Shown here: positions 6,406-24,258 of the stretch, in pieces
How the letters are laid out: the number at the start of each line of letters is the position of its first letter
Position numbering within the stretch: the stretch's first letter is position 1
Virus record (IMG/VR): IMGVR_UViG_3300030108_001127
Span: 1 to 27,290 of that record
Strand: one strand, 5' to 3'
DNA length: 27,290 nucleotides
Origin: a virus
Position numbers and translations under genes: made by a program
Notes under the pieces: model-generated
What the model was told of the DNA's origin: nothing
Database searches by the model: none
What the model saw: the letters and a program-made list of their open reading frames with translations, nothing else

Positions 6406-6418
6406 ACATTAACCTTTA
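6402..6418 (-). repeat. TAAAGGTTAATGTTAAC motif at the 3' end of the giant gene
   Basis: On the minus strand this reads TAAAGGTTAATGTTAAC and begins with the stop codon of the giant gene. It differs by one base from the copy at 16213-16229, which overlaps the other end of the same gene region. It matches the 5096-5110 site closely as well. The two copies thus bracket the 9.8-kb gene. Confidence 0.6.
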
Positions 6419-9400
6419 TCCTGCTTTTTTAAAACCTGCCGATCTCATTAATATTAAACCTTGCTTCATCAGATCATTTATCTTTTGTCTTCTGATTCTT
6501 TTGAGGTTTAGCTTTGTTTGTTCTGGTATTCGTGGGTTAGCTTCTATCTCTTTAATCTGCCGTAATAATCTATTCCTTGCATTATCAATAGCCTTTATTC
6601 TTCCAGCTATCCTTAATTGATCTTTATACTCCGTGAATAGGCTTCTAACAGTAGACCCATCTCCTGACTTCTTTGCTAGATCTATTCTAGCTAGTATCGT
6701 GTACAGGTCTTGCCTGTTCTCTAAATAGTTTCCTACATCTTCTCTTTCACTAGGACTTATTACCACCTTTCTAACTAGTGGAACTGCTCTCATTATATCG
6801 CCTTCAAAGTCTCCTTGCAAAGCATCGTAAATAGCGAAAGGAGCTTCAGCAGATCTTTGCACAAATGCTCCCGTGCCACCAGCGAAGTAATCAAACCAGA
6901 ACTCTAATGTATTAGGGCTAAAGTCTATGTAACCACTCTCTACTGCATCTCCACCAGTAATACTGTTTATTGAGTCTGCAATTCCTTTTGCTATAGAGCT
7001 AGTATTAGACCAGTATGCTTGACTATCAGGCGTTGGTCGTGATGAGAACGTAGGACTTTCTTTGTATATAGGATCTCCTTTATAATCCTCGTTGATAGCC
7101 AAACTAACAAAAGGATCAAGTACGGTAGGTGCTGTAAGATTGTAAATGTTATCAAATCCACCAAAAGGACTTATACTTTCAAACGCAGTGCCGAAGATAG
7201 ACCTACTGGCTTCTCCTGCAGTGTATTCCCCTCTGGCTGATCTACTTAATGATCTACCAAAGTTAACTGCCAAGTTAAGACCATAAGATAAAGGTATCAT
7301 TATGAACTTGTCATCTGCTAATCCAAATGTAGGTAATATTAAATTATGCTCTAAAACGTATCTAGGTAATTCGTCATAATCTTTAATTCCATCTTCATCT
7401 TCATCATCAGATAATAATGAATTGATCTGATCTTGCATGATGCCGTAGATAACCAAACCACCCCAAACTTTTCTTACCTTCTTTGATTTCGCGGCAGCAT
7501 TAATAAGTGCCATCGACCCTTGAAGTGATGCGTTATAAAATAAATACCAAGAGTTCATGAGAGTCTTGTTTTCTCCACCCTTCGCAAAGTTCACGGTTAC
7601 GTTCCTTGCCGCTTGTGCAGCCCGGGCCGGTGTAACGCCACGCTTAACTAGTGAAGTGAATGTTGCAACTCTTACACCATTCTCAACTGCTGTATTATAG
7701 TCATCTAATAATTTTAATAAGTTTCTTGTAAATCCATTTTTATTTAAACCTAGTTTCTTTTTTATACCTGTATCAGATATATCTCCTAGTATATCTCCAA
7801 TATTATTTATCTGATCCTGAAGATCACCCATCTGGTTAGTAGCATTTTTACCTCCAGCCTCAACAAACTTATTGTATTCTTTAGACCAAAAGGTTTCTTG
7901 ACCACCTCTCAGTACAGCAACTATTCCTTTTACTGCTGGTAAAGCACTGGTCAATACTTCTTTCGTCATCCCTTTTTGATCGTACTGTTGCATGTTCACA
8001 CCAGCTGCTTGTAAGTCTCTGGCAAAGTTTGGAATAACAAATGATGGGTTGTATGTTGTATTAATGCTAGATAGATACTTATTCATTTTACCAAGGGCTT
8101 TAGTAAACTTGCCCATGCTTTCTGGGGTCATATGACCCTTCATTGCACGTCCTATTCTTTGATCCTTAAAGTGAACCTTAACTTCTGCGCCATTTTCTTT
8201 TAATGTAAGTATAGTATTTTCATCTAATGCATCTCTTGCTTGTTTAGGCATGTCATCTAAGAAAACAGCTATTTTACTCATGTGTTCTCTTAATTGATCG
8301 TTGATAGCAAAAGTACCATCAGGTTGCTCTTCCATGCCTCTCATTAAATTTAAAAATGATCTACCAACTTTATTACGCTCACCACGATCTATTGATCTTT
8401 GATTCTGTGCCATCATGGATGCAATTATATTTTCTGCATAATCGGTTTGTCCTAATGCGGACCGGTCTTCCTTACCCGCTGCGCCAAACAAATTAGTGGT
8501 CATTCTTGTTTTACCCATTAAATCTTCTTGTGTTTCAACCTCAGATTCAATGTCACCTCTAAGTGGCACATAATATTTATAAACTTTAGAATTAAAATTA
8601 TTATCTAATAAATCTTTTGATATTAAACCACTATCTAATCTTTGCCTGTTAGTGTTTTGTATTATCTGCCTAGATATATTTTCTATCTTAGCCAATTTAC
8701 CACCTTCAGTAGCATCAAGCGTAGATAGCCAATTTATTATGGCATCAGCTTCACTATTTGCCATACCAGAACCTTTTGTCTTATCTCCACCTTTATTTTT
8801 ATTTATGTAGTCGTTTCTTTCTTTAGCATGCCTTGCGTAAAGGATGGCATCTGCAACTGCCAATCTTTTATCAATGTATCTCTTTGCTGCCCTAGTATAA
8901 AAGTTACTAATACCTTTGAGTTCATTTAATTTAGACTCTGATATATTTATAGTTTTTATAGTATCAGCTAATGGCTCAAATAATTCTTTTTGTATTTTCT
9001 CAACTTTAGCTCCTGCCACACCATGAAACAACTCTTCTTGCATATATGTATCTAGTGCATCGGCTATTGTGAAGCCCTTCTTCTTTAACTCATCCAACAT
9101 AGCACCTACAGGCAGTAAAGCATCTTGAAACTTAATTAATATTTTTTCTGCTTCTTTTTGTGCTTTTTCTTTTTCTATCTTTCCAAATGTAATCTTAGAT
9201 ACAATCCTACCTAAAACTGGTGCTAAATTATTATATTGAATATTAAGTCTTTTCTTTTCTATATCTTCAACTATTTGATTTGATTGTGGTGTCGTGTCCG
9301 AAGTTGGCATGGTGGCCACTGAGTTAACACGCTGCGTTCCTAAGCGCCTGTCAGACTCTTCTAAAAATGTTGTATTAACTACATAAACTGGTTGAGAGTA

Positions 9401-12400
9401 TGTATCTTTTTTATATTTTAAAACTAATGCTAATGTTTTATTAGCTTTGTTTTTACCAGCTATTCTTGCTTTATCCCATAACAAAACAAGATCAGTTGAT
9501 TTGCCATCAAATTTTTGTCTTACACCATTCTTATGCTTATACGCTTTTAATGTTTCGTATATAGCAGTTTCAACATCTTTATATTTTATCCAATTACCTT
9601 CTTCTGTAGGGACTAATAACTCATCTCTTCTGCTTGGTTTTCTGCCGCGCTCACCTAGAATATGCGCTAATCCCTCACCACTATAAATAGGGTTGCCTGC
9701 CTGATCTGTTCCTTTATATTCGTGAAATCCCTCTGTTAAAACCACATTGGTCATTCTTCCCTGCGGGCCTTTAACAGTACCATAAAAATATCTATTACCA
9801 AATACACTCTCAGTTGGATCTGCTAAAGGTACGTTAATTAGCTTGTTTGGGTTAACAGCTGCTGACATAACCCTGTTAAACTTATCAAACTCGTTTTGTA
9901 ACTTTTGTTGGTCTGACTTTTCTTGCTCTGTTAAACCTTCAGATACATCATATTCTTCTACTTCTTGTTCTGCATCTGCTTTTTCTTCTGTAACGATATC
10001 ATTTGGGTTATAAACTCCTTCAATCTTTCTCTCGGTATTTGTGTCACTATCGAGTCTGTTTCTCTCTGATTCGGGGAGTGCTTCTGTGATCGTTTCATTT
10101 TCTATACCTCTCTCTCTTAAAACTGCTATAGCTCCATCTACATAGTCATTTTTTAATCCCTGACCTTTTCTAACACCATAGGCATCTAATAAATCTTTTT
10201 CTGCATACCATAACAATGCTTGTATATCTGCATTACTAATATTTATACCGTTCTCAGCTAGTATTTGTCTTGCCCTGTTAATTACAAGGCGCATCATTGC
10301 ACGGTCCCCTCCACTACGAGGCGCCTCTACAACTTGAACATTTGCGTTTCTATTTAAAGATTGAGCCGCTAAATCAAGCTCTGTCTTTTTTTCCCTTAAC
10401 TCTACAGGTGTTTTAGAAAATGCTACTTGATACTGCCTATCTAATGCTGCAGCTAACTCTAAAGCTGTTGCATCATTAATAATATCTAAATTTGCTTCAT
10501 CTTTTGCATCTTCAATAGCATTAATAAGAAAATTATTTCTTTGTGCTTCTGCTGTTTGTACAGCCCTTAACAATCTAGCTTTATTATCACTTAATACATT
10601 TTCGCCTATAACTTTAAATGGGTTGCCTGTTATTCTATTAAAGAATCTCATAAACCATCTATCCATAGTTAATGCATCATAGTTGCCTCTAACATTTTGA
10701 TAAAATGCACCACCTATCTTAGATCCGAATATTTGTGAACCCTTAACAATTGTATTAACTGTCTCTGTTGAAGATACAGTAATTCCAAGTTCTTTTATTA
10801 TTGGTAAGTTTTTAAGCTCACCCATTGTAAAATCTGAGTTAAGAAACTCTGTTATTTCTGCATCAGACATAGTTTCTTTCATAGTATTATAGGCTAAGAA
10901 AGCCTTTCGCATACCGGCATCTTTACCCTCTTCTTTAAATGTACCGTTCTCAACCCAATGCTCGTATTGCTCTGTAGCTAATTTAAAGTTAGGAATAATG
11001 GCTAATCCGTTAGATGTTATAGATAGCGCAAAGTCAAATGCCGCTTCATTGTCTGGATTATATGCAGGATTAGACTTATCAACCTCTGGATGCGCTACAC
11101 CTATAACTTTCTTAGCTAGTTTAAGTGTACGGTCATACCATCCTATGGCACTGTCATCACGCTCCATAGCAACTCTAGCTTCTTCAGCTATTATTTGTGA
11201 TACAGCTTCTCTATCTTCTGCATTATTAATATCATAAACTGCACCGCCTCTTTCGTCTTGTAGCTTTTGTAATGCATCTTCTAACTTCACTGTGCCTGCA
11301 GGCGCTGATCTAACAAATGGATTTTCATCACCTAATTGTGCTTTTGTTAATATATTGCCATTATCATCAGTCTTATAGTTCTTAATTATACTTTGATTTA
11401 ATAGCTTAGGATCAAGTTGTTTTCTTGAAAACATTACGTCTTTAAATTCTAATAGTTTATCCCTTCTATCTTCTCCATATTCAACTATTTTACCATCAGG
11501 CATATTTCTTTTTAAAATCTGCCTAACTTGAACAGAGGTTTCTTCAGGTATCAACGCTCCAGAAAATTCATTTAATCTTACAGCTCTAGCAGGTTTTATT
11601 TCAAAATATTCTGTAGGCATTGATTTAATTCTTCTGCCAGTTTCATTAATTAAATCAATAATAGGTTTTGGCAAATTAGCTTGCTGACTCTTTAATTCCT
11701 CACGAAAAGATTCTTTTCTTTCACCTGTAATTATTTGATAAAGATTATAATCTGATTTTTTCTCTAATATATTAACAACCATCTTTTTAGGGATACCATT
11801 ATTATTAATAACATCATCAACGGTATAGCCATCAGGATTACCTTCAACTATTTTTGCTAATGTAGGATTATTATTAAGAAATGTATAAATTGTTTCTTCT
11901 GATAAACTATAAGCTCTTTGAACTTCCTTAACAGAATCTTGAAATTTTTTAAAATCTATTCTTTCTCTACTATTTTTTATCTCTTGTAATGTTTTAAAAC
12001 GAGGTGTTATTCTTGCGGCTAACGGCCCAAGTGTTTTAGCTGTCTCGAAGCCTTTTTCTTTAGCTGGTCCTTTTCTTTTTCTCATAATTGCTACAATATT
12101 ATCCAATGTAGCTTTTTTATTTTCAAAAGTTTCAAAGTCTTGTACATACTCTGTAACTAAAGGCATTTTTTTATTTGCATAAGGCTTATTTATTGCCTCT
12201 AAAGCATTTTCTCTTTCTGTTATTAGCCAATCTCTTAAAGACTTTTCTTCATATTTTGGACTAATTTGATCTTGATAATCACCAAATCCAAATCCAGCCA
12301 TACTATTTATAATATCTGCTGTAATTCTATCTCTATTTTCTTTGCTACCAGCTGCATTTTCTTCAATAATTTCCTTCATTCCTCCTGTATCTTTAAGATA

Positions 12401-15400
12401 CTTCAATCTTAATAAAGGAGACATTTCATCTAAATATATTTCATCTTTTGTAAATGGGTCGTAGTCTTTATTTAATGCTTTTACATCTTTTTCTGATTGC
12501 TCAGGTAATTCACGAAATGCATTAGAAAATGCAACTTTAACATCATAGCTTAATTCTGGCTCTAGTTCATATTCATTAATAATTTCATTTCGCAACTGAT
12601 CTCTTAATTTATTAACATATTTTAAAGCATCGTCAGTAGCTTCAAATTCTGGTCTTGGCGCTCTTGTAGTGTAAGCATCTCTTTTATAAACTTGATCTAT
12701 GCTGCTTGGTGTTGCCATTCTGGCGTTTCCAATCAAAGATATATCACCAAAAGATTCAAAGCCTAAGCCTGCTTTAGCTATGGCAATTGAAGGCATAGGT
12801 ATTCCACCCAATTTATCTGCTCTTACCAATGCTTCTGCAGATAAATTATGTGCAACAAATAATAAATCTTCTGTTGCAATATCATCAGTAATAGCTTTTT
12901 TAACAGAAAATTTTGTATCAGCAGGCAACTCACCAGATAGCTTTCTTCCTAATATTTCCTCTACTTCTGCTTTGTACGGTAAATCTCTTACACCTTGACT
13001 TTGTGCTATAGTTTGTGCTTCTTGCCTTGATAAGACTCTATCAATACGCATATCACCACCAACTAACCAGTCTTGCTTTGCTTGTCCATCTGCGTATACA
13101 TAGCTGCCGCCTAATGGTACTCTATCATTTATATCTGTTCTGTCTGATGCATCTATTTGTGTCTGATAATCTACATCATCTGCCATAGATACTTTAGCAA
13201 ACACCTGATCTTCAGCTCTACGCTTTACAAAAAGTTTTCCCTCTTTAGGCTTAATAACCATACCTAAATCAGTTAATATTTTTGCTTCTTCTTTTGTAAC
13301 TTGCAGATCTTCTGGACCTAAATGTAGTGCATACGCTTTAACGCTTGCATGAAACCCGGGTCGTGCAGCAACCGCCCTAACTTGGCCATACGGATTAAGT
13401 TCATTTCTTCCTGCTTTTTCAGTTATATAACCTTCTGCAATAAGTTTTTGTCTTTCCTGCTCTGAAGATATGGATACCATTGTGCCAGTATCTCTTTTAG
13501 CTTCGCCTTTAGTTCTCTCTGCCCCTTTTGTCGGCACATAAAAAGATTCTGTGCCAAGTTTTTTATTTGGACCCTTACCAATAATTGGTCTGCCCCTAAA
13601 TGTAGCAGTAGGAAAATCAGCTTCTATAAACTGACCAATAGGTATAGGGTCTGCTGCATTAACAAATAATGGTAATAATTGCCCATCTGCTCTCTGTACA
13701 AATAACTTATAAGCTGTCTTAACCTTTTGTGGTATTGTTCTGCTTGGCCTTACTTTAGGCTTTACATCACCAGTAAGCTGGTCTGATAGACTGGCTTGTG
13801 TATTAAGAAGGCTGTTTTGCCTTTCCATAACACTTTCTGGGTCTCTCTTTCTTCTACCTATTTGCTTTTCTTGATCTGTAGTGCCTATATTTTCAAATAT
13901 CTGATCTACATCTGTTATTCCTACATCCTCATGAGCGCCAAATATTGACTTAATAAACTTAGTAATTTTTTGTAGTAGGGTCTTAGGCTGACCACCAACA
14001 ACTATTCTGCCATCAGCGTATGCTCTGTACATCTCAGCAATCGCTTCTTCTATTTTGGCCTCAGCTGTAAGATCTCTATTCATTCTTTCAGCTCTGTCTA
14101 AGAATGTATATTGTCTCTCTACTGGCTTTCCGTTTTCCATTACAACGTATTTACGTTTACTAACAGCATCAGTTAATGTTTTGTATTCTTGAGCGTTAAA
14201 CAAACCCATACGTTTAATAGCATGTATTATTTCGTGATTTAATACAGAGCCTATCTTAGCTTCTAGCTCTGCGTCTGTGAGATTAGGATCATATATCTCC
14301 ATAGCCAAAGCTATTGTTGGCTTACCACCCTCTGTTTGGAAATAACCCTCATAGATTTGACCCTTTTGCAATGCCTCTGTAGGTGACTCGTTAGGATTAC
14401 CAGTTAGTATATTTTCTTGCCTTAATACAACATCGCCCAATCCAATAGCTTTCATTCTATCAGATAGCTTTTTCATAACTAAATCTCTTTTGCTCATGTA
14501 GTTATCTGTAAGTTTTTTCTTATCTGCTACATCAAAGCTCTTTTTAGCAGTCAAATCAGGTATAACCGCACTAGCAGTCACAGGATTTTCTATCGCCACT
14601 CGTTGATCTGTGGTCCCTTTAACATCGGTGGTGCCATATCTTTGTTTAATATAATTAGCGGCATCACGCTCAAGTATCATTGCCTCTTTAATTACATTGT
14701 CATACTCAAGGTTTTTTTGCTCTAATCTTTGTCTGTTTGTTTCTAGTGTAACTGGATCTGCATCTACCGCAGGTATAGGAGGGGCATCATCTATTGTCTT
14801 TTGTATAGCTTTCTTTTCTTCTATTATTTGTTCTGCTTTAGATTTTAAAGCTGCGGCTCTAGCTTTATAGGTATCTAGATCATCTTGCATAACTTCAAAC
14901 TTATTTTTGCCAACAGATTTTATCTCACCACGCTTTGACATTTCCTCTATGATGCCGTCAACCTCAACTTTAGGTATCTTTCTACCTTCTTCTCTGATAG
15001 CATTTCTAACTATTGTAGGGTTTACCTTGCCTGCCTTTTTAACAGCGTCTAATGCTTTGGTGTATTTTTGAAAAAATGGTAACTCAGCTGCAGATATCTT
15101 TTCTCTATCTATAACCTTATTATCTTCTGTCTCTAGATCTGCAACGCCTTTATCATCTTGCACTTCTGCAGGTGAAGTTGATGGTGCAGGTAACGCTTTA
15201 TTGTCTAAAAAGTTCTCTGCATTTTTAATTTGTTGCTCTGTTTGTAATGCTTCGTTAGCTTGGTCTCTATTTAACTCTTCATCTTTTGTTAACTTTTTTT
15301 CTCTACTTCCTGCAACTATGGACCCTGTTGAGCGAACTGTACCACCAATTAATGCAGCAGCTGCGGCTACTTCTTTATATTCATCTATTGCTTCTTTGTT

Positions 15401-16210
15401 TGTTAGACTTTTCCCAGCCTGCAATCTTTCTAAAACTTGCTGTCCTATCTCTGTAGGAACTTCTGTCACCACACCTTTTGTGGCCCCGATTGCACCACGT
15501 CTACCTATTTCTTTTATTCCTGCCTTTACGCCCTTAGTAAAAAGACCTCCACCACCAACTAGCTTACCAGTAAACCCACCTATTAAAAATCTATCAGCTA
15601 TTAAATCTAACACCGATTGTGGTAGCGCAGCTAACGCAGCAGCGCCCTCAGATACCTCTATTCTATTACCCTTTTCTATTTCTTCTTTTTGTGCTTCTCT
15701 GTTTGATCCATAGAAAAAAGGTAAATTAGCAGCTAATCCACCGACAACCGCTCCTGCAGGGCCACCAACTAAGAAGCCTGCCGCAGAACCAGCAAGTGTG
15801 CTACCAAGTTGAGGAACCTGTGACCCTAATGTAGCACCTGCGTAATCAAAGAAACTGCCTACATTATTTATATCATCTAATTGCCTTGCAGCATCTTGGC
15901 TTGCTTCTAGTTCTTTTCTATTTTCCTCTACTACAGATGCACCATAGTTTTTAAGAAAATCAAGACCTGTGGACTCACCAATACCCTCAATAGCAGAGCC
16001 ATAAGCCTGCTGTATGGTATCGATGCCTCTTCCTATATTTTTGGTAAATAAATTGCCATCGTCTTTTTCTATGGCTTCTGTAGATAAACCTTCTTCTTGT
16101 GCTAGTATCTTATTGATTCTAGCCATTTCGGTTTGTGTAGGAGTGTCTCCGTCAATCTTAAATGGATAATCTCTACCAGTAACTCTGCTAAAAGCGTTAT
16201 ATGTTCCCAT
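6416..16210 (-). CDS. Giant polyvalent virion (ejection) protein with zincin metallopeptidase motif, 3264 aa
   Basis: This is the last gene of the late operon, in the position of T7 gp16 but about 2.5 times longer. Visible parts: a Gly/Ala-rich hydrophobic segment at about 125-165; charged helical linkers to 530; a metallopeptidase region with HEIIH at 659-663 and EEAIAE at 721-726 as probable third ligand, as in polyvalent-protein zincins; a segment with RPGFHA near 950-955; a segment with VAHNLSAEALVRADKLGGIP near 1119-1138; a segment around 1735 with ALSITSNG; a possible nuclease-like region with GLAHILGERG near 2180; and an LPD38-like C-terminal region (about 2690-2960) containing YNPSFVIPNFARDL and a hydrophobic helix near 2917. 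These resemble large polyvalent protein-associated domains. Probable role: packaged in the capsid and ejected into the host to aid DNA entry or counter host defences. No primase, methylase or RNA polymerase motif was noticed. The start has only a weak AAGG ribosome site. Confidence 0.85.
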   Translation of the reverse strand: MGTYNAFSRVTGRDYPFKIDGDTPTQTEMARINKILAQEEGLSTEAIEKDDGNLFTKNIGRGIDTIQQAYGSAIEGIGESTGLDFLKNYGASVVEENRKELEASQDAARQLDDINNVGSFFDYAGATLGSQVPQLGSTLAGSAAGFLVGGPAGAVVGGLAANLPFFYGSNREAQKEEIEKGNRIEVSEGAAALAALPQSVLDLIADRFLIGGFTGKLVGGGGLFTKGVKAGIKEIGRRGAIGATKGVVTEVPTEIGQQVLERLQAGKSLTNKEAIDEYKEVAAAAALIGGTVRSTGSIVAGSREKKLTKDEELNRDQANEALQTEQQIKNAENFLDNKALPAPSTSPAEVQDDKGVADLETEDNKVIDREKISAAELPFFQKYTKALDAVKKAGKVNPTIVRNAIREEGRKIPKVEVDGIIEEMSKRGEIKSVGKNKFEVMQDDLDTYKARAAALKSKAEQIIEEKKAIQKTIDDAPPIPAVDADPVTLETNRQRLEQKNLEYDNVIKEAMILERDAANYIKQRYGTTDVKGTTDQRVAIENPVTASAVIPDLTAKKSFDVADKKKLTDNYMSKRDLVMKKLSDRMKAIGLGDVVLRQENILTGNPNESPTEALQKGQIYEGYFQTEGGKPTIALAMEIYDPNLTDAELEAKIGSVLNHEIIHAIKRMGLFNAQEYKTLTDAVSKRKYVVMENGKPVERQYTFLDRAERMNRDLTAEAKIEEAIAEMYRAYADGRIVVGGQPKTLLQKITKFIKSIFGAHEDVGITDVDQIFENIGTTDQEKQIGRRKRDPESVMERQNSLLNTQASLSDQLTGDVKPKVRPSRTIPQKVKTAYKLFVQRADGQLLPLFVNAADPIPIGQFIEADFPTATFRGRPIIGKGPNKKLGTESFYVPTKGAERTKGEAKRDTGTMVSISSEQERQKLIAEGYITEKAGRNELNPYGQVRAVAARPGFHASVKAYALHLGPEDLQVTKEEAKILTDLGMVIKPKEGKLFVKRRAEDQVFAKVSMADDVDYQTQIDASDRTDINDRVPLGGSYVYADGQAKQDWLVGGDMRIDRVLSRQEAQTIAQSQGVRDLPYKAEVEEILGRKLSGELPADTKFSVKKAITDDIATEDLLFVAHNLSAEALVRADKLGGIPMPSIAIAKAGLGFESFGDISLIGNARMATPSSIDQVYKRDAYTTRAPRPEFEATDDALKYVNKLRDQLRNEIINEYELEPELSYDVKVAFSNAFRELPEQSEKDVKALNKDYDPFTKDEIYLDEMSPLLRLKYLKDTGGMKEIIEENAAGSKENRDRITADIINSMAGFGFGDYQDQISPKYEEKSLRDWLITERENALEAINKPYANKKMPLVTEYVQDFETFENKKATLDNIVAIMRKRKGPAKEKGFETAKTLGPLAARITPRFKTLQEIKNSRERIDFKKFQDSVKEVQRAYSLSEETIYTFLNNNPTLAKIVEGNPDGYTVDDVINNNGIPKKMVVNILEKKSDYNLYQIITGERKESFREELKSQQANLPKPIIDLINETGRRIKSMPTEYFEIKPARAVRLNEFSGALIPEETSVQVRQILKRNMPDGKIVEYGEDRRDKLLEFKDVMFSRKQLDPKLLNQSIIKNYKTDDNGNILTKAQLGDENPFVRSAPAGTVKLEDALQKLQDERGGAVYDINNAEDREAVSQIIAEEARVAMERDDSAIGWYDRTLKLAKKVIGVAHPEVDKSNPAYNPDNEAAFDFALSITSNGLAIIPNFKLATEQYEHWVENGTFKEEGKDAGMRKAFLAYNTMKETMSDAEITEFLNSDFTMGELKNLPIIKELGITVSSTETVNTIVKGSQIFGSKIGGAFYQNVRGNYDALTMDRWFMRFFNRITGNPFKVIGENVLSDNKARLLRAVQTAEAQRNNFLINAIEDAKDEANLDIINDATALELAAALDRQYQVAFSKTPVELREKKTELDLAAQSLNRNANVQVVEAPRSGGDRAMMRLVINRARQILAENGINISNADIQALLWYAEKDLLDAYGVRKGQGLKNDYVDGAIAVLRERGIENETITEALPESERNRLDSDTNTERKIEGVYNPNDIVTEEKADAEQEVEEYDVSEGLTEQEKSDQQKLQNEFDKFNRVMSAAVNPNKLINVPLADPTESVFGNRYFYGTVKGPQGRMTNVVLTEGFHEYKGTDQAGNPIYSGEGLAHILGERGRKPSRRDELLVPTEEGNWIKYKDVETAIYETLKAYKHKNGVRQKFDGKSTDLVLLWDKARIAGKNKANKTLALVLKYKKDTYSQPVYVVNTTFLEESDRRLGTQRVNSVATMPTSDTTPQSNQIVEDIEKKRLNIQYNNLAPVLGRIVSKITFGKIEKEKAQKEAEKILIKFQDALLPVGAMLDELKKKGFTIADALDTYMQEELFHGVAGAKVEKIQKELFEPLADTIKTINISESKLNELKGISNFYTRAAKRYIDKRLAVADAILYARHAKERNDYINKNKGGDKTKGSGMANSEADAIINWLSTLDATEGGKLAKIENISRQIIQNTNRQRLDSGLISKDLLDNNFNSKVYKYYVPLRGDIESEVETQEDLMGKTRMTTNLFGAAGKEDRSALGQTDYAENIIASMMAQNQRSIDRGERNKVGRSFLNLMRGMEEQPDGTFAINDQLREHMSKIAVFLDDMPKQARDALDENTILTLKENGAEVKVHFKDQRIGRAMKGHMTPESMGKFTKALGKMNKYLSSINTTYNPSFVIPNFARDLQAAGVNMQQYDQKGMTKEVLTSALPAVKGIVAVLRGGQETFWSKEYNKFVEAGGKNATNQMGDLQDQINNIGDILGDISDTGIKKKLGLNKNGFTRNLLKLLDDYNTAVENGVRVATFTSLVKRGVTPARAAQAARNVTVNFAKGGENKTLMNSWYLFYNASLQGSMALINAAAKSKKVRKVWGGLVIYGIMQDQINSLLSDDEDEDGIKDYDELPRYVLEHNLILPTFGLADDKFIMIPLSYGLNLAVNFGRSLSRSARGEYTAGEASRSIFGTAFESISPFGGFDNIYNLTAPTVLDPFVSLAINEDYKGDPIYKESPTFSSRPTPDSQAYWSNTSSIAKGIADSINSITGGDAVESGYIDFSPNTLEFWFDYFAGGTGAFVQRSAEAPFAIYDALQGDFEGDIMRAVPLVRKVVISPSEREDVGNYLENRQDLYTILARIDLAKKSGDGSTVRSLFTEYKDQLRIAGRIKAIDNARNRLLRQIKEIEANPRIPEQTKLNLKRIRRQKINDLMKQGLILMRSAGFKKAG

Positions 16211-16212
16211 TT

Positions 16213-16229
16213 GTTAACCTTAACCTTTA
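16213..16229 (-). repeat. TAAAGGTTAAGGTTAAC motif in front of the giant gene
   Basis: On the minus strand TAAAGGTTAAGGTTAAC lies 2 bases before the ATG of the giant gene and contains the stop codon of the preceding gene. It provides AAGG as the only ribosome-site-like sequence for that start. It matches the 6402-6418 copy at 16 of 17 bases. The 13-base core GTTAAGGTTAACA also occurs at 1826-1838 upstream of the helicase. Confidence 0.6.
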
Positions 16230-17614
16230 GAAGCTGTGCTATCACTTACATCTATGTCTAAATATCCAAATCCCGCCCTAGGCATTAACGCTCTCTTTTG
16301 GAATCTTAATTGAGCTATATCTCTTTCTATCTTAGCTAAAGCTGTTTCATCAAACGATTTTTCTGCTTCTTTTCTTAAATTTGCTATTGTTCTATCTATT
16401 ACACCAATAGCAGAGATTGCGTCCTTTTGTGAAAGGCCAGTGTTTTTAGATGCTAGTTTTACTCTAGCATTTAATATATCTGTTAAGCCCTCTTCGTATC
16501 TTTTATTAGCCTCTCTAAAAGCATCAAGGCCCTTCATACCGCCCTCTCCTACTGCGCCTGCTAAAGTAGGCTTGTCAGATGCAAGTATTCCTAATCCAGC
16601 TTGTGCTAATGCCATATACCTATCAAAGTCTCTATCTTTTTTTAATCCTGCCTGTCTTTTTAATAACTCTTCTTGTATAGTTAAAGGCTTTGGCGTTGTT
16701 GGCGTGTCAGCTCCAGAATCAATAATTGCATCTGTATCTTCTTTTTTTTCTTCAGTAGTAGCTTTGGTAGGCTTTTCTTCTTCTTCTAATTTAGCAAGAG
16801 TTGCGTCAGTAGCAGGGCTTCTTAAAACAGGGCCAAAACCAAGAGGATTGGACTCTGCTATTCTTTTTTCTACTGTTTCTTTATCTGGATTTAATGCACC
16901 AAAAAACTTACTTAAATAAGACTCTTCATCAGGTAAGCCATCTTGAGCTTTTATAACACCACCATCTGCATATCCAATCGCACCGAATCTCATAGGAGAT
17001 GCTATTTGCCCTTGCATTTCTGCAATAGCAGGTTGTGGAGATATTCTTGCGGGTCCTGAGAAAAACCTACTTCTTCCTTTACCACCTATACCTCTTTGAA
17101 TGGGTGGATTAAGCGGTCTACGAAAACCACCTCTATCCATAAGTGTTGGTATTCTTGGGCCGGGTAATTGTGTAATGTTGTCTGGCTGATTTTGATCTAA
17201 ATCAATATTAAATTTTGCCTCTGCTTCATTTTCTATTTCATCCAAATAAGGATCTACTTCTTGACCCATACTTTGCCTTATTTCATTGCCAAACTGAGCC
17301 AACCCTCCTGATCTCATGTTAATAGGCGCATTTGTTCCTATACCCTCTGAGGCAGCGCTTGCAGGAGCCATTGCTTCAGCCATACCAGCTATACCAGATT
17401 GAGGAACACCTGCCGCAGCAACAACCTCCTCTGCAACTGTTGGGGCTTGCTGTGCTTGTCTAGCGGCAAACTCACCTTTTACTCTTTTACGTCTATTTAA
17501 TTCTGACAATACAAGAAACTGAGGTGCAGAGCCGCTTGGCTGTTGCATTTCTTTTATTAACTGATCTTCAGAAAAGTTTTTTAAATCATCTTGTATTTGT
17601 AAAACGTTCATCAT
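16220..17614 (-). CDS. Probable internal virion/ejection protein (464 aa)
   Basis: The N-terminus NVLQIQDDLKNFSEDQLIKE followed by QPSGSAPQFLVLSELNRRKR is a motif I associate with marine phage structural proteins. The middle is low-complexity and rich in Ala, Gly, Pro and Gln, with short GG-x-I/L motifs (MRSGGL, YADGGVIK). A helical block (about 300-450) follows, rich in Lys, Glu and Ala. No catalytic motif is seen. Its place directly before the giant gene and after the 312-residue protein matches the T7 gp15 slot. It starts as ATGATG overlapping the previous stop, and the second ATG (17611) is also possible. It probably forms part of the internal core or ejected channel. Confidence 0.65.
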   Translation of the reverse strand: MMNVLQIQDDLKNFSEDQLIKEMQQPSGSAPQFLVLSELNRRKRVKGEFAARQAQQAPTVAEEVVAAAGVPQSGIAGMAEAMAPASAASEGIGTNAPINMRSGGLAQFGNEIRQSMGQEVDPYLDEIENEAEAKFNIDLDQNQPDNITQLPGPRIPTLMDRGGFRRPLNPPIQRGIGGKGRSRFFSGPARISPQPAIAEMQGQIASPMRFGAIGYADGGVIKAQDGLPDEESYLSKFFGALNPDKETVEKRIAESNPLGFGPVLRSPATDATLAKLEEEEKPTKATTEEKKEDTDAIIDSGADTPTTPKPLTIQEELLKRQAGLKKDRDFDRYMALAQAGLGILASDKPTLAGAVGEGGMKGLDAFREANKRYEEGLTDILNARVKLASKNTGLSQKDAISAIGVIDRTIANLRKEAEKSFDETALAKIERDIAQLRFQKRALMPRAGFGYLDIDVSDSTASKG

Positions 17615-18549
17615 CCGCCTGTTAACCCTCTATATAATCCTAATCCAGCTATACCCGTGCCTAATAAGTCTTTGACAGGATTGTATTGTTGAAATTTAGT
17701 GGTTTCTGTTGATGGCTGCACGGGTACACCACGCAAAATAGATGACAAGAATGTCAAATCTTCTCTTGGCATATCTCTTTGTCTAATAAAGTCTTCATAT
17801 GCTAAGTCTAATCCAGCCTGCTCTCTTGCCTGCCTATCTTTTGCTATTTTTTCTAAAAGCTGTGCAGACTCAATATCACCAGCTCTTGCTTTCTCGCCTA
17901 GTGCAGCAAGCTGCGCTGATTGACCAGAAAGACTCTCTGCTGCAGATAAGCCTTGTCTTTCAGCCGCCAGTTTTGCCGCTCTATCTCTCTCAAATTGCTG
18001 TTGAGCTTGCTCAAAGGCTTTTTGCTGACCAACCGCTTGTATTTCACCTAGTTGTCTTTGCAGGCCCTCTCCAGCAAGCGCTCTTGAAACAGCTTGTCTT
18101 GACCCACCAAATGCGCCAGCCTGCACAGCATCAGCATCTCTACCTGCTTGTTGTCTATTAAAATCTAATATTGCTTGCCTTTTTTGTACATCTAATACGT
18201 TTTGTAAATATGGTGACATATATTGTTGAGCCTGCTCAGATCCAAAGTCTTGTGATTGAAATCCTAAACCCTCTATTGCTCTCCCCATACCTGCTGTAGT
18301 ACCTGCCGTTGCTTGACTTAACCCGGGTATACCACCCTCTGCCACAGACCTAGCTATTTCTCTTGATCTAGCTGTATCTTCGTTTTCATCTGCAAGTCTT
18401 TGACCCTCATATGGAATATACTCTCTTTTAGACTCTGCTTCTGCCCTTTTAATCATATCTATAGCATATGGCTCAAAGTATTTAGGTAATGAGCTTTGTA
18501 CTATATTTTGTTCTGTTGGCTGTTGTGGTCTTGATCCGCCTTTACCCAT
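17611..18549 (-). CDS. Probable internal virion protein, Gln/Ala-rich coiled coil (312 aa)
   Basis: The protein is rich in Gln, Ala, Arg and Glu with long helical stretches. It includes AVQAGAFGGSRQAVSRA near 145-160, a motif I have seen in podovirus-like virion proteins. A further helix region contains QQKAFEQAQQQFERDRAAKL. A short hydrophobic Gly-rich tail (GTGIAGLGLYRGLTGG) ends the protein. GGAG precedes the ATG. It overlaps the upstream gene by 8 bases and the downstream gene by 4, so all three are coupled. By order and composition it may be an ejection protein comparable to T7 gp14 or gp15. This is inferred from context. Confidence 0.65.
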   Translation of the reverse strand: MGKGGSRPQQPTEQNIVQSSLPKYFEPYAIDMIKRAEAESKREYIPYEGQRLADENEDTARSREIARSVAEGGIPGLSQATAGTTAGMGRAIEGLGFQSQDFGSEQAQQYMSPYLQNVLDVQKRQAILDFNRQQAGRDADAVQAGAFGGSRQAVSRALAGEGLQRQLGEIQAVGQQKAFEQAQQQFERDRAAKLAAERQGLSAAESLSGQSAQLAALGEKARAGDIESAQLLEKIAKDRQAREQAGLDLAYEDFIRQRDMPREDLTFLSSILRGVPVQPSTETTKFQQYNPVKDLLGTGIAGLGLYRGLTGG

Positions 18550-18970
18550 TATTAATCTCCATTCTATAAGCTATATATTCTGGTTTCCAATTGTATTTTT
18601 TTAAAACTTTTGACCATGCTTTTCTACCGTAACCTTCTAAATGACTGCAACCACAATCTTTTGCAAAACTTGTCAATCTTTCCATAGCGATAGGCAACCA
18701 TTCCATCATTCTTTTGCCACCAATCCAATCCATAGCCATTGCTTTTCTGTTTGGATACCATATTATTCTAGTTGTAATAGCGGCTATAACTTTCTCTCCG
18801 TCTTTATTATCTACTATTAACCAAAGATTATAATAACCTTTAGTTAGTTCATGATAAATATCATCAATATGATATTTACCTCCGCTTGTGGCTATCGCTT
18901 TGTTAAGCATACTGCTAACATCACCCCAAACTATATCTATTGCCTCACGAGGCACTGCTGTGCATATCAT
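18542..18970 (-). CDS. GNAT-like fold protein, T7 gp13-like by position (142 aa)
   Basis: The protein begins with a helix pair, then NLWLIVDNKDGEKVIAAITT, a beta-hairpin typical of GNAT domains. WIGGKRMMEWLPIAMERLTS and GCSHLEGYGRKAWSKVLKKY follow, then a final strand EYIAYRMEI. The pattern GCSHLEGYGRKAW...KKYNWKP resembles the late part of the GNAT fold (the family's acetyl-CoA-binding loop is not obvious). In T7-like phages a protein in this position (gp13) helps assemble the virion. An acetyltransferase activity is not shown. It overlaps its upstream neighbour by 4 bases (ATGA). Confidence 0.55.
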   Translation of the reverse strand: MICTAVPREAIDIVWGDVSSMLNKAIATSGGKYHIDDIYHELTKGYYNLWLIVDNKDGEKVIAAITTRIIWYPNRKAMAMDWIGGKRMMEWLPIAMERLTSFAKDCGCSHLEGYGRKAWSKVLKKYNWKPEYIAYRMEINNG

Positions 18971-20010
18971 GCAGGCAACATCATCTCATCAGGTATAGCA
19001 GGTGGTTGTGTTTTACCACCAGTTCTTAATTGTCTAACTCTATCCATCATATCTTCTAATTTATCAGCACCTGCATCTGAGGAGCCGTTACCGAGGCCAC
19101 TAACAACGTCAGCAGGCACGACAAACTCACCATCAGAAAGTAATACATCTTGATCTCCCTCCATATTTGCAGGAATCATATCAGCCATACCATCTCCAGC
19201 ACCTTTAACCATGCCATCACCTTCTTTTGGAATAGATGGAATTTCACCACCTTGTACCTTTTGTATTAAATCCTGCAAAGCCTCTTGACCAAACTCAGCA
19301 ACAAACTGAGATAAAATAACTTTTTGTTGGTCAGGGTCATTAATTTCACCTTGTATAACGTCAATTGCGCTACTTATTAATTCTTTATCATTCATTCCAT
19401 CATCCATCATACCACCAATACCTGCATCCATAGGCATTATATCGCTTTCTACTTCTCCGCCTTCTGCAAAGTTTTTAGGTATTCTATAATTAAACTCACC
19501 CATTTTACCTGCATCATAACCCATCTCAGGAAATATAGATGTATTTTCAATCGGCATACCCCTTGGCATTTCTATTTCTTCTTCTTCTTTTGGCTTCATC
19601 ATTGGAGGTGGCGCTAATGACGCACCTATACCAGCTCCTATAGCTTCTGGCCTTGTTAACATATCTGTAAAACCGGGTACAGCACCTGTAGTTCCTCCTT
19701 GCATTGTCATAGCTGATGGTAAACTAGCGCCTCCTAATGGTGTTGTAACTGCTGGATTAGTAGTGCCAAATCCCGGCATAGTACCTCCAGCTATATTTGA
19801 TCCACCAGTTGCTCCACCTAACTTTCCTCCAAGAAAACTTCCCAAACCACCTAATGCAGCAGCTCCTAATGCGTCTTGTTGACTGCCACCTTCTAATAAT
19901 TTTCCTAGGCCACCGCCTATTGCGCTTGCTATGGCGGCATTAGATGTAATAGCTAAACCTGCTGGTCCAAGTATTGCTGGTGCTGCTAAACTAAGTATTG
20001 CTGATAACAT
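18967..20010 (-). CDS. Probable membrane-associated virion protein with LSDGEFVVPADVV motif (347 aa)
   Basis: Residues 1-35 are hydrophobic, with Ala, Leu, Ile and Gly, and could insert in a membrane. A Gly-rich stretch follows to about 115 (GGLGSFLGGKLGGATGGS), then an acidic, Met- and Pro-rich linker. The C-terminal part has GAGDGMADMIPANMEG, then LSDGEFVVPADVVSGLGNGS, then a helix DKLEDMMDRVRQLRTGGK. The LSDGEFV...A..V...GNG pattern recurs in phage internal proteins from marine viruses, as far as I recall. AGGAG lies 8 bases before the ATG, inside the lysozyme 3' end. A role in the ejection machinery is likely; the exact function is unknown. Confidence 0.65.
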   Translation of the reverse strand: MLSAILSLAAPAILGPAGLAITSNAAIASAIGGGLGKLLEGGSQQDALGAAALGGLGSFLGGKLGGATGGSNIAGGTMPGFGTTNPAVTTPLGGASLPSAMTMQGGTTGAVPGFTDMLTRPEAIGAGIGASLAPPPMMKPKEEEEIEMPRGMPIENTSIFPEMGYDAGKMGEFNYRIPKNFAEGGEVESDIMPMDAGIGGMMDDGMNDKELISSAIDVIQGEINDPDQQKVILSQFVAEFGQEALQDLIQKVQGGEIPSIPKEGDGMVKGAGDGMADMIPANMEGDQDVLLSDGEFVVPADVVSGLGNGSSDAGADKLEDMMDRVRQLRTGGKTQPPAIPDEMMLPA

Positions 20011-20011
20011 A

Positions 20012-20458
20012 TTACGCTCCTAGTGCTTTCATTCTGTTTATTAAACGCTCTGCTCTATTAGGCACTTGTGTTCTCCATTTTGAGTCATACATCTGATTTG
20101 CGCTCTCAGTAAAGTCCATAATTGATATACTTGCTCTAAGTTTACTAAATTTACTTAGTCTTGTGTACCCCAAATTGTACATCATATTACATAAAATTAA
20201 TTGTGCCTCTTCTGGCAAGTCATCGAAGTTGCCAAATAAATTTTTACAATCTGCTATAGTTCCCTGTATATCACTATCAAAACAACTATTTACACGCTCT
20301 TCACTTACAGGTGTGCCTACATCTTGTCCATACTCTGGGTCAGTATCACGGACCAGATGACCAATCCCAAAAGTAGGCAAACCGAGGTGATCCAAATAAA
20401 TTTCATTTACGTTTCCTTCGTCTGCCTCTATTTCCTGCCGCAGTTTTTGTATGTCCAT
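20012..20458 (-). CDS. Endolysin, GH24 (T4-type) lysozyme
   Basis: The protein has 148 residues. The active site matches T4 lysozyme spacing exactly: E14, D23 and T29 (E11, D20 and T26 in T4), within EADEGNVNEIYLDHLGLPTF. GIGH follows at 31-34. The end carries TQVPNRAERLINRM, the family's C-terminal helix motif. It hydrolyses the bond between N-acetylmuramic acid and N-acetylglucosamine in peptidoglycan. No signal peptide or membrane anchor is seen, so it needs the holin to reach the wall. AGGGAG precedes the ATG. It is separated from the holin by three small genes and followed directly by virion genes, so lysis is embedded in the structural operon. Confidence 0.95.
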   Translation of the reverse strand: MDIQKLRQEIEADEGNVNEIYLDHLGLPTFGIGHLVRDTDPEYGQDVGTPVSEERVNSCFDSDIQGTIADCKNLFGNFDDLPEEAQLILCNMMYNLGYTRLSKFSKLRASISIMDFTESANQMYDSKWRTQVPNRAERLINRMKALGA

Positions 20459-21737: not shown

Positions 21738-22117
21738 TACAAATCTACCTGTGGTGTTCTATGTATTGCAAACTCTTGTATACTTGCGACTACATGCAAT
21801 CTATTTGCTGTTGCTGCTGTGGCCTTTAATATCTCGCCCTCTTGCAATATTAAATCTCTTGTTAATAATTCTACAGAAGTATTAGCTGCAACTGCTTTTA
21901 AATTAAATAGGCTAAAAACATCAGTGCCATTTGTTAATGTAAGGGTTATAGTATCTGCGTTAGGGGATTCATTAGACACTATTATACTATTTATTACAGA
22001 TGCGTTAAAATCTGCTGTAGTTGGCGCTGTATACAAAGTGGTTATACTTGTTGTAGACAAGTCCAACTTAGCATTTGTTAAACCTTGCACATATTGTGGT
22101 ATACTTGTAACTAACAT
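21737..22117 (-). CDS. Small beta-rich virion protein (126 aa), unknown
   Basis: The sequence SIPQYVQGLTNAKLDLSTTS then TTLYTAPTTADFNASVINSI is followed by alternating strands (IVSNESPNADTITLTLTNGT, LTRDLILQEGEILKATAATA). Little charge and many Thr, Ala and Asn fit a beta-sandwich such as a decoration or tail-accessory domain. The N-terminal part resembles short structural proteins of marine phages. It is linked by TAATG overlaps to the tail stabilisation-like gene upstream and the small exported protein downstream. Confidence 0.6.
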   Translation of the reverse strand: MLVTSIPQYVQGLTNAKLDLSTTSITTLYTAPTTADFNASVINSIIVSNESPNADTITLTLTNGTDVFSLFNLKAVAANTSVELLTRDLILQEGEILKATAATANRLHVVASIQEFAIHRTPQVDL

Positions 22118-24258
22118 TATCTTCTTCCGTCTTGCACAATATTTACTTGAGGTGATCCTAATTTAAACTTTGTGCCTATTTCTGTAGACTCAACACGCAA
22201 AGCAAATGTTCTGCCTCTAACTCTAACGTCTAATTTTTCCGTATATGCTTCTACAGGTGTGGTTGCCGTTCTTTGAGATGTGTTACTATCGTCTGTCTGT
22301 GTAAAACCAGAACCAGAGTGTGTTCTTGCCTTTATTGTAAAATCAACTTGAGGATTAATTGACGTTGATCCTGCAAAGTTAATATCTGGCACAATTCTAT
22401 TTATAGATGAAAATCTATTCGCACCACCTAAAGCCATAGGAGCGGACTCAACAAATGATGTCATAGCGCTACCATCATCATCAAATCCAGTTTCATGATT
22501 AAATATAAATCCACCACCAGTAGCTAATGGTAAAGATCTTATTCCTCTATCAAGCCAAGCCTGTCTTGCCAAAGAACCAAAATACCAAATATTCTCTAAG
22601 TAATTATATATTACATATTTATCTATTTCTGTGCTACTTGCGCTAGGATAAAACCACCACACCTCACTAAACTCTGTATTAGCGCCAACATGGACTTTAT
22701 TTCTCTCTTCAATATTTAAATCAAGAAACACTTTGTCTTTTACACTACATGGTAACTGCTGTGTTTGTCCTGTATATATATAAAATGTGTCTACACCCAT
22801 CCAATACACACTGTCATCTATAGCTATAGCTGACGATGGACTCATTATTGTTATATTCTTCGATAATTCTTTTATACCAAAAGTGAAAGGCGGACCTATA
22901 AATCTCATGGCATGTAATGTTTTATTTGTATAAACTAATATTTGTTCTTTTGTTTCTACGGCTTGAACAAATGTAGATCCACCACCTAATCTTAAATCAC
23001 CTGCTGTATTGGTAGTTGTTGGAAAAAAGTCAACAGGATTTTCTTGTGATGAAAATCTAACTAACAGTGGATCTTGCACTCCATCACCTTGTGGTGCTGT
23101 AGGGCTTCCTCCCAATCCATCACATCCAAATACAATAACATGCCTGTCTTGATCTGATATAAGAACTTGTTTAGCTATTGTTGGAACACTAGTTTCTCCT
23201 GAAAATGTAGATGTAGAGCTAAGTTCTACTGCTCTATTACCAAGACCAGTTGTTTTGTCCCAGTAAAATAACCCCCCATCTCTAGGATTTATTATTAAAT
23301 CCTCACCAAAGTTATCATGTGACCATGTTCTAATTTGCGCACCCGGTGTTGTAACGGATGCTGCATTACCCCAGCCAACAAAATCATTATCAGAATCTGC
23401 ATTACCAACAGCTAATCTTACAAGTGTATTATCCGCATGTGTCGCTGCAGTCGTTCCGCTATGTCCACGAGTTACAGTCATTGTGTTGTCATCAGTTGTT
23501 GCAGATATGAGCATAAGCTCCTCTTCTACAAGTATTACATCATTAGCAGTATTCATACCTGTTTCATCATCTACATCTACATCAGTCTCACTTGCATCAA
23601 GTGCCTCGTTTAATTGTGTTGCTAAGGCACCAGATGTTGTGCCGCTCCACTGACCTGCGCCCCATCCCGTACCACCAACCGTAACATCTAATCCAACGTT
23701 TAGCTGATATGTACCAACAACACTACTTCCACCATTACCTGTATCAGATGAATTAGCTGCAACACTAGATGTGATTGTGTAAGCATTAGAACTAATTAAT
23801 GATGTTATTTGAAACTCTGCATTTAATATTGTGGCGGTTATTACCCCACCTAAACTAACAGCGCCAGAAAATGTAACAAAATCATTTTCATTTGCACCAT
23901 GAGCATTATCTGTAACAGTTATTGTTGTGGAGCCATTAGTGGCTGCAAATGTTACATCACCTGCAGATGTTATATTTCTTACAGGAGTAATATCGCTAAA
24001 TGTCTGCCCTTCTTCTATATAATATTTAAGATGTGTACCAACGCCTAAGAAATCAGATCCATCTAAAGCAACCCAATTATGTAGTCTTCTAGCGCTACCA
24101 AGATATGTGCTAAGACTAAATTTTTCCCAACCTCCTATCTTTTCTGGAGACCCTAATCTGAATCTTATTTTATCACCATCAACAAAACCACCCTCATTGC
24201 TGTAAGGTGTAATATCTGAGACAATACCTGATTTAAATGTTATTTTATTTAAAGGCAT
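22117..24258 (-). CDS. Tail/stabilisation protein, P22 gp10-like or podovirus tubular tail type (713 aa)
   Basis: The N-terminus FKSGIVSDITPYSNEGGFVD, then GDKIRFRLGSPEKIGGWEKF, is the opening of a large podovirus tail-accessory family. The middle (about 105-290) has Thr/Asn-rich beta repeats and a DNA segment for VTRGHSGTTAATHADNT, an insertion-like domain. The later part (about 310-620) alternates WYFG, WLDRGIRSLPL and WMGVDTFYIYTG-type strands, consistent with a beta-propeller. The end has a fibre-like FTIKARTHSGSGF region. It probably builds the tail tube between portal and fibres. Strong GGAGGT precedes the start. Confidence 0.75.
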   Translation of the reverse strand: MPLNKITFKSGIVSDITPYSNEGGFVDGDKIRFRLGSPEKIGGWEKFSLSTYLGSARRLHNWVALDGSDFLGVGTHLKYYIEEGQTFSDITPVRNITSAGDVTFAATNGSTTITVTDNAHGANENDFVTFSGAVSLGGVITATILNAEFQITSLISSNAYTITSSVAANSSDTGNGGSSVVGTYQLNVGLDVTVGGTGWGAGQWSGTTSGALATQLNEALDASETDVDVDDETGMNTANDVILVEEELMLISATTDDNTMTVTRGHSGTTAATHADNTLVRLAVGNADSDNDFVGWGNAASVTTPGAQIRTWSHDNFGEDLIINPRDGGLFYWDKTTGLGNRAVELSSTSTFSGETSVPTIAKQVLISDQDRHVIVFGCDGLGGSPTAPQGDGVQDPLLVRFSSQENPVDFFPTTTNTAGDLRLGGGSTFVQAVETKEQILVYTNKTLHAMRFIGPPFTFGIKELSKNITIMSPSSAIAIDDSVYWMGVDTFYIYTGQTQQLPCSVKDKVFLDLNIEERNKVHVGANTEFSEVWWFYPSASSTEIDKYVIYNYLENIWYFGSLARQAWLDRGIRSLPLATGGGFIFNHETGFDDDGSAMTSFVESAPMALGGANRFSSINRIVPDINFAGSTSINPQVDFTIKARTHSGSGFTQTDDSNTSQRTATTPVEAYTEKLDVRVRGRTFALRVESTEIGTKFKLGSPQVNIVQDGRR

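Follow-up and report, generated by a model that had tools for sequence, protein, structure and literature searches.

What does a virus gain from a protein whose gene takes up more than a third of the DNA around it? The window considered here, the whole stretch of 27,290 nucleotides that was analysed, comes from a 43,262-base IMG/VR record of an uncultured marine bacteriophage and contains an uninterrupted reading frame of 3264 codons at 6416-16210, covering 9795 of its 27,290 positions (35.9%). An earlier note on this DNA had described a single 3264-residue gene using 36% of the window, and the reading frame confirms it; the minus strand is newly added, and the PBECR5 cassette, winged helix, LUZ24-like N-terminus and junction motif described below were likewise absent from that note. 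The product belongs with the phage polyvalent proteins that Iyer et al. 2017 (PMC5512222) described, in that it joins unrelated domains in one polypeptide and is encoded among virion genes. As a protein it is thus a fresh case of an already known kind. All of its domains are under purifying selection, with dN/dS of about 0.01-0.27 against close relatives.

Genomic setting and probable virion association

The giant gene shares its strand with tail-fibre-like genes, a gene for a 713-aa virion structural protein, a lysozyme gene and four smaller genes, which it follows. The replication genes have the opposite orientation and lie at 2.5-6.3 kb, with a primase-helicase at the left end. The tail-fibre-like protein at 24258-25682 has a long, Gly/Ser-rich, low-complexity C-terminus. 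The genes leading to the giant are:

22117-24258, minus strand: virion structural protein, 713 aa (phrog_3287, 6e-62)
20012..20458, minus strand: phage lysozyme, the likely wall-degrading activity of the module (Pfam Phage_lysozyme, 3.6e-8)
18967..20010, minus strand: 347-aa gene, by position a possible internal virion protein
18542..18970, minus strand: 142-aa protein, weak match to gp52 of the syntenic phage TL (2.2e-4)
17611..18549, minus strand: DNA ejection protein-like, 312 aa (phrog_4287, 1.3e-11)
16220..17614, minus strand: 464-aa upstream gene, by position a possible internal virion protein
6416..16210, minus strand: giant polyvalent ejection protein gene, a single ORF with an ATG start, 3264 aa

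Four smaller co-directional genes do precede the giant, at 16220-20010, but the earlier view that all four probably encode internal virion proteins is matched by a named family only for 17611-18549; family searches returned no family for the products of 16220..17614 and 18967..20010. In gene order the giant closes the series of internal virion genes and is the largest of them, and a T7 gp16-like position, as previously proposed, is borne out. Membership of the gp16 family is not, since Pfam and PHROGs give neither a gp16 nor a transglycosylase match, and homology to T7 gp16 is rejected.

The closest counterpart of this gene order is found in the LUZ24-like Pseudomonas phage TL. Residues 51-300 of the giant match residues 62-319 of TL gp48 (3.7e-15), whose annotation is virion structural protein, and TL gp54 (1.6e-14) and gp52 (2.2e-4) are also matched, with the genes in the same order as in TL. 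Synteny of the upstream genes is found with TL only; BLASTP comparison of these genes with the neighbours of the DC1, Ruegeria, Vibrio, Manatee Spring and Ab9 giants gives no significant match. TL gp48 thus has a homologous N-terminus and the same place relative to the gp54 and gp52 equivalents, but is a protein of 1055 residues, whereas the giant has about 2900 further residues after the shared part.

At its other end the giant resembles the DarB-like giants of Bcep22-like phages, such as DC1 gp67 and JC1 gp69. The C-terminal core (core 2, below) is homologous to the giant of Burkholderia phage DC1 (8e-38, 24% identity), whose locus is annotated with virion proteins, and JC1 gp69, from the same phage group, has been detected by mass spectrometry in CsCl-purified virions (PMC9144972). 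The remainder of DC1 gp67 differs, being annotated as transglycosylase, helicase and methylase where the present protein has zincin and PBECR5. Both ends of the giant are therefore tied to virion proteins, and by analogy with these relatives the protein probably travels inside the virus particle and enters the host along with the DNA.

Domain architecture

The regions of the protein outside the cassette discussed in the next section are as follows:

15182..16210, minus strand: N-terminal module, residues 1-343 (homology to LUZ24-like internal virion protein)
14885..15088, minus strand: winged-helix domain, residues 375-442, FtsK-gamma/Z-alpha-like fold (fold match and weak Pfam match)
14636..14881, minus strand: predicted long paired helices, coiled-coil-like, residues 444-525 (structure model)
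13811..14545, minus strand: zincin metallopeptidase-like domain, residues 556-800 (model and PDB neighbours)
14222..14236, minus strand: HEIIH zinc-binding/catalytic motif, residues 659-663 (H, E and H invariant)
14033..14050, minus strand: EEAIAE glutamate helix, residues 721-726, candidate third zinc ligand (E721, E722, A723 and A725 invariant)
12962..13228, minus strand: domain of unknown function, residues 995-1083 (phrog_30118, 5.9e-17)
9341..11329, minus strand: core 1, residues 1628-2290, common to part of the family and to the giant of Limnohabitans phage DC33
6419..9331, minus strand: core 2, residues 2294-3264, conserved more widely than any other part (alignment, PHROGs)
6833..7384, minus strand: LPD38 domain, residues 2943-3126 (Pfam)

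Residues 44-323 of the N-terminal module also match a virion structural protein family, phrog_6958 (3.1e-23), and hydropathy reveals a Gly/Ala-rich hydrophobic segment at about residues 138-156. The model of residues 375-442 superimposes on 2ve9_B with a VIA Z of 8.8 and an rmsd of 1.9 over 60 residues, placing it near FtsK gamma; the Pfam match of the same residues, to the MCM_C winged helix (2.6e-4), falls under the family cut-off.

The HEIIH/EEAIAE zincin-type site noted earlier lies at residues 659-663 and 721-726. H659, E660, H663, E721, E722, A723 and A725 do not vary among 52 aligned sequences, the most distant of which share 24-30% identity, and the two motifs are also conserved in a second alignment of 66-67 sequences; because these residues are invariant across such distant relatives, the motifs are not there by chance. 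The domain was modelled alone, since the fold search with a 526-residue model was swamped by winged-helix and coiled-coil matches. Built from the 52-sequence alignment, the model has a pLDDT of 84.7 and a pTM of 0.81, and by DSSP its order of helix, strands, HExxH helix and Glu helix is that given by Iyer et al. (PMC5512222). Its PDB neighbours in VIA-align are almost exclusively zincins: lethal factor and Certhrax (Z 7.2-4.8), PPEP-1 and PPEP-3 (6.3-5.0), lugdulysin (6.1), SprT-type proteases (5.7) and MATCAP (5.7). A zincin-like fold around HEIIH, which the earlier note had set as a test, is therefore present in the predicted structure. The scores are middling (best VIA Z 7.2, Foldseek E 0.016), but the neighbour list is uniform and the motif agrees with the fold, so that as a statement on the modelled fold the assignment of residues 556-800 to the zincins is solid; proteolysis is predicted. 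Sequence searches of solved structures with three alignments of the giant returned nothing relevant. Among viral proteins the best matches of the model include some annotated as structural, polyvalent or ART-PolyVal, and the zincin search matched 399 viral contigs, so that the domain belongs to an abundant marine family. Two relatives, L059 (residues 849, 1228 and 1964) and L052 (846, 1200 and 1762), have three HExxH motifs each.

Core 2 is recognised by phrog_14770 (1.1e-120) and phrog_616 (1.5e-92), which with phrog_10691 span residues 2348-3241, and its search returned 128 phage records. Within it, LPD38 (PF18857) scores 117.3 bits against a cut-off of 27 (1.2e-33). Several segments resembling large polyvalent protein-associated domains had been claimed; this was overstated, as Pfam finds one, LPD38, and the other domain is PBECR5. 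The description of a multi-activity protein holds nevertheless, given a zincin by model and polyvalent-type domains by Pfam, and an anti-defence activity is possible. The zincin metallopeptidase, PBECR and LPD38 are all in the domain list of Iyer et al. (PMC5512222), and the giant resembles their polyvalent proteins in bringing disparate enzymatic domains together in one giant virion-linked protein; it differs in its particular combination of a LUZ24-type N-terminus, winged helix, zincin, exchangeable PBECR5 and LPD38 core. Limnohabitans phage DC33 (PQ492659) is recorded as belonging to the Inoviridae, yet has 39 kb and a 3125-aa giant akin to core 1, and this taxonomy looks wrong.

An exchangeable cassette and its junction motif

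Between the zincin and the cores lies a segment with a different history:

11426..12916, minus strand: swappable cassette, residues 1099-1595, with PBECR5 at 1099-1274 (Pfam, and absence in relatives L068/L006)
12896..12910, minus strand: junction motif FSVKK on the upstream side, residues 1101-1105, at the border of the cassette (which L068 lacks)
11417..11431, minus strand: downstream junction motif FSRKQ, residues 1594-1598, at the cassette edge

PBECR5 (PF18814) scores 72.3 bits against a gathering cut-off of 25 (7.5e-20). H1121 is retained in all eight aligned cassettes, as is D-[AI]-Y-[TS]-x-R; on the strength of family membership the cassette is predicted to be RNase-like and to cut RNA.

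The PBECR5 cassette is exchangeable between giants. The relative L068/L006 is without residues from about 1098 to 1588, although its zincin and its two cores show 87-97% identity. Other close relatives diverge most in the cassette, with 69-70% identity there compared with 87-98% in the zincin and cores and a dN/dS of 0.26 compared with 0.03-0.09, and identity changes in steps near residues 1100 and 1600, at its two edges. More widely, when 71 full-length relatives (<80% identity) were mapped, about 50 covered the zincin and core 2 and 24 covered core 1, but just 2-3 covered residues from about 900 to 1620. Domain-wise dS values run in opposite directions in two relatives, with 0.18 in L005 and 0.81 in L007 for the zincin but 1.04 and 0.17, respectively, for the N-terminus, implying intragenic recombination. 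In another relative (L022) the giant gene is broken in its variable zone by one in-frame stop (9302-9304), leaving frames of 1391 and 1471 aa; a genuine split and a sequence error are both possible.

Homologues of the cassette occur in Cobetia phage Carin1 gp32, in the Acinetobacter phage Ab9 giant and in a stand-alone protein, gp65 of Roseobacter phage CRP-902. The Carin1 and Ab9 giants share the T7 gp16 position, coming after internal virion and lysozyme genes, but Carin1 gp32 has no BLAST match to the present giant outside the cassette. CRP-902 gp65 (L176, 11260-12801), annotated just as 'nuclease', consists of the PBECR5 cassette on its own; it sits between portal-type and capsid genes and terminates in LFSV where the giant has FSRKQ.

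The motifs at the two cassette edges resemble each other, and the FSR tripeptide of the downstream one recurs in such proteins. In 42 non-redundant giants FSR occurs 60 times where 14.7 are expected, while in the other proteins of the same loci it stays at expectation (32 observed, 27.3 expected). It is the top non-singleton tripeptide of the poorly covered, variable regions (32 compared with 6.0). The extended form [ILMVPT]FSR lies within 25 residues of an alignment or module boundary in 85% of cases, against 40% of random positions; of the control tripeptides in this comparison FTR, FAR, FSK, ISR and LSR are at background and YSR and FSE somewhat higher. The contrast is somewhat overstated because FSR was chosen from the giant's own cassette edges and a shared motif may attract BLAST ends. 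Free of that bias are the variable-region tripeptides, a further set of giants with 18 FSR against 5.5 expected (part of which had already appeared in the 42-giant count), and seven previously unseen prophage giants with 10 against 3.2, a number reached in none of 300 shuffles. The consensus around the motif is [DE][IVL]P[LMT]FSR. Nearly every synonymous codon is used for its Phe, Ser and Arg, so that selection acts on the protein, and DNA microhomology as the cause of FSR is ruled out by this diversity.

We propose that FSR is an interdomain junction that marks module exchange; judged from its sequence and position it is possibly also a processing site. The motif varies in number: the L059 giant has five copies, the DC1 giant, with its 24% identical core, has none in its own frame, and a simple scan of solo PBECR2 proteins shows no FSR-type motif. 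In the L059 and L052 giants the FSR sites are interspersed among the later modules. An extra FSR stands at the extreme N-terminus of the present giant, in MGTYNAFSR (residues 7-9, window 16184-16192), and is kept in close relatives. Packaging of phage P1 DarB requires residues 6-10 (PMC9024508); a link between the two is speculative.

Proposed processing, its alternatives and significance

How might these parts work together? The explanation that we favour, and regard as fairly probable, is that an ejection protein of a LUZ24-like podovirus has been enlarged and is processed by its own zincin at FSR, freeing PBECR5 to cut RNA. On this view the final and biggest of the internal virion (ejection) proteins of a LUZ24-like marine podovirus has grown into a polyvalent protein. 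Its N-terminal module and core would bring about 3000 residues into the head and from there, together with the DNA, into the cell. During or after delivery the zincin would act mainly on its own chain and cut the modules apart at the linkers between domains, with the recurring [L/M/V]FSR-type junction motif as the leading candidate for the site. The freed PBECR5 module might then cut RNA early in infection, with mRNA of the host or the phage, or RNA-based defences, as its targets, and this cassette would be exchanged for other payloads in neighbouring phages. Processing of polyvalent proteins by zincins was proposed by Iyer et al., who note that P1 DdrB is processed; the N4 virion RNA polymerase has a zincin yet is packaged unprocessed (PMC5512222), and the presence of a zincin therefore does not prove cleavage. 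That polymerase is like the giant in being a giant virion protein with a zincin domain, and unlike it in its polymerase, as Pfam and PHROGs give no RNA polymerase family match here. Moreover, nearly all giants carry a zincin, which makes the co-occurrence of FSR and zincin uninformative, and FSR may serve linkage or docking instead of marking a cut site. The DC1 giant without FSR, a prophage giant (L203) that has FSR but no HExxH or HExxxH, and the middling fold scores of the zincin also count against this explanation. More tentative is the broader idea that the interdomain processing signal of phage polyvalent ejection proteins in general is [DE][IVL]P[LMT]FSR, with its relatives, and that it is cut by the zincin of the same chain; such giants would then be polyproteins, with payload cassettes swapped during evolution and released during infection at one short motif.

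The zincin could instead be an effector, attached or released whole, that cleaves host proteins such as those of defence or transcription, with FSR a flexible hinge. Its closest folds are lethal-factor and PPEP-type proteases, which cut specific substrates, and Iyer et al. list this alternative (PMC5512222); but the zincin is little changed beside a swapped cassette, as would be expected of a housekeeping function more than of an effector under rapid evolution, and a mere hinge sits poorly with a motif that recurs at module boundaries. We consider this reading doubtful. It is unlikely that FSR has no function in the protein and is just a passive linker, or the scar of recombination between modules at a permissive boundary: the identity steps and the cassette absence do coincide with the motif, but with nearly all synonymous codons in use nucleotide homology is not what is conserved, and the consensus is tighter than a neutral linker needs. 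That FSR is cut by another protease, of virion maturation or of the host, leaving the zincin with a different job, is likewise unlikely. In P1 virions DarB occurs together with the prohead protease Pro (PMC9024508), and FSR but neither HExxH nor HExxxH is present in one prophage giant (L203, of 1810 aa and perhaps incomplete); all seven prophage giants except this one, however, carry HExxH or HExxxH, and no maturation protease is identified in the part of this incomplete record that was seen. A T7 gp16-type wall-penetrating channel with the zincin as peptidoglycan peptidase, for which the end position after the internal virion genes and the Gly/Ala-rich N-terminus could be cited, is highly improbable, and the wall peptidase suggested earlier goes with it, given the missing gp16 and transglycosylase matches, zincin neighbours that are protein proteases of lethal-factor, PPEP and SprT type, and a separate lysozyme (20012-20458) as the adjoining wall enzyme of the module.

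We return to self-processing at FSR as the preferred reading. The main text of the 2017 proposal of zincin processing names no cleavage motif and does not mention a recurrent FSR junction motif (PMC5512222), and a search of the literature, incomplete in coverage, found no report of an FSR motif in phage proteins; neither the motif nor the way it coincides with natural cassette boundaries seems to have been reported before. A natural variant without the cassette, the steps in identity and a motif conserved at the protein level converge on the same two positions. What merits following up is the junction motif together with its location at the cassette boundaries. FSR also offers a means of predicting where payloads begin and end in other giants.
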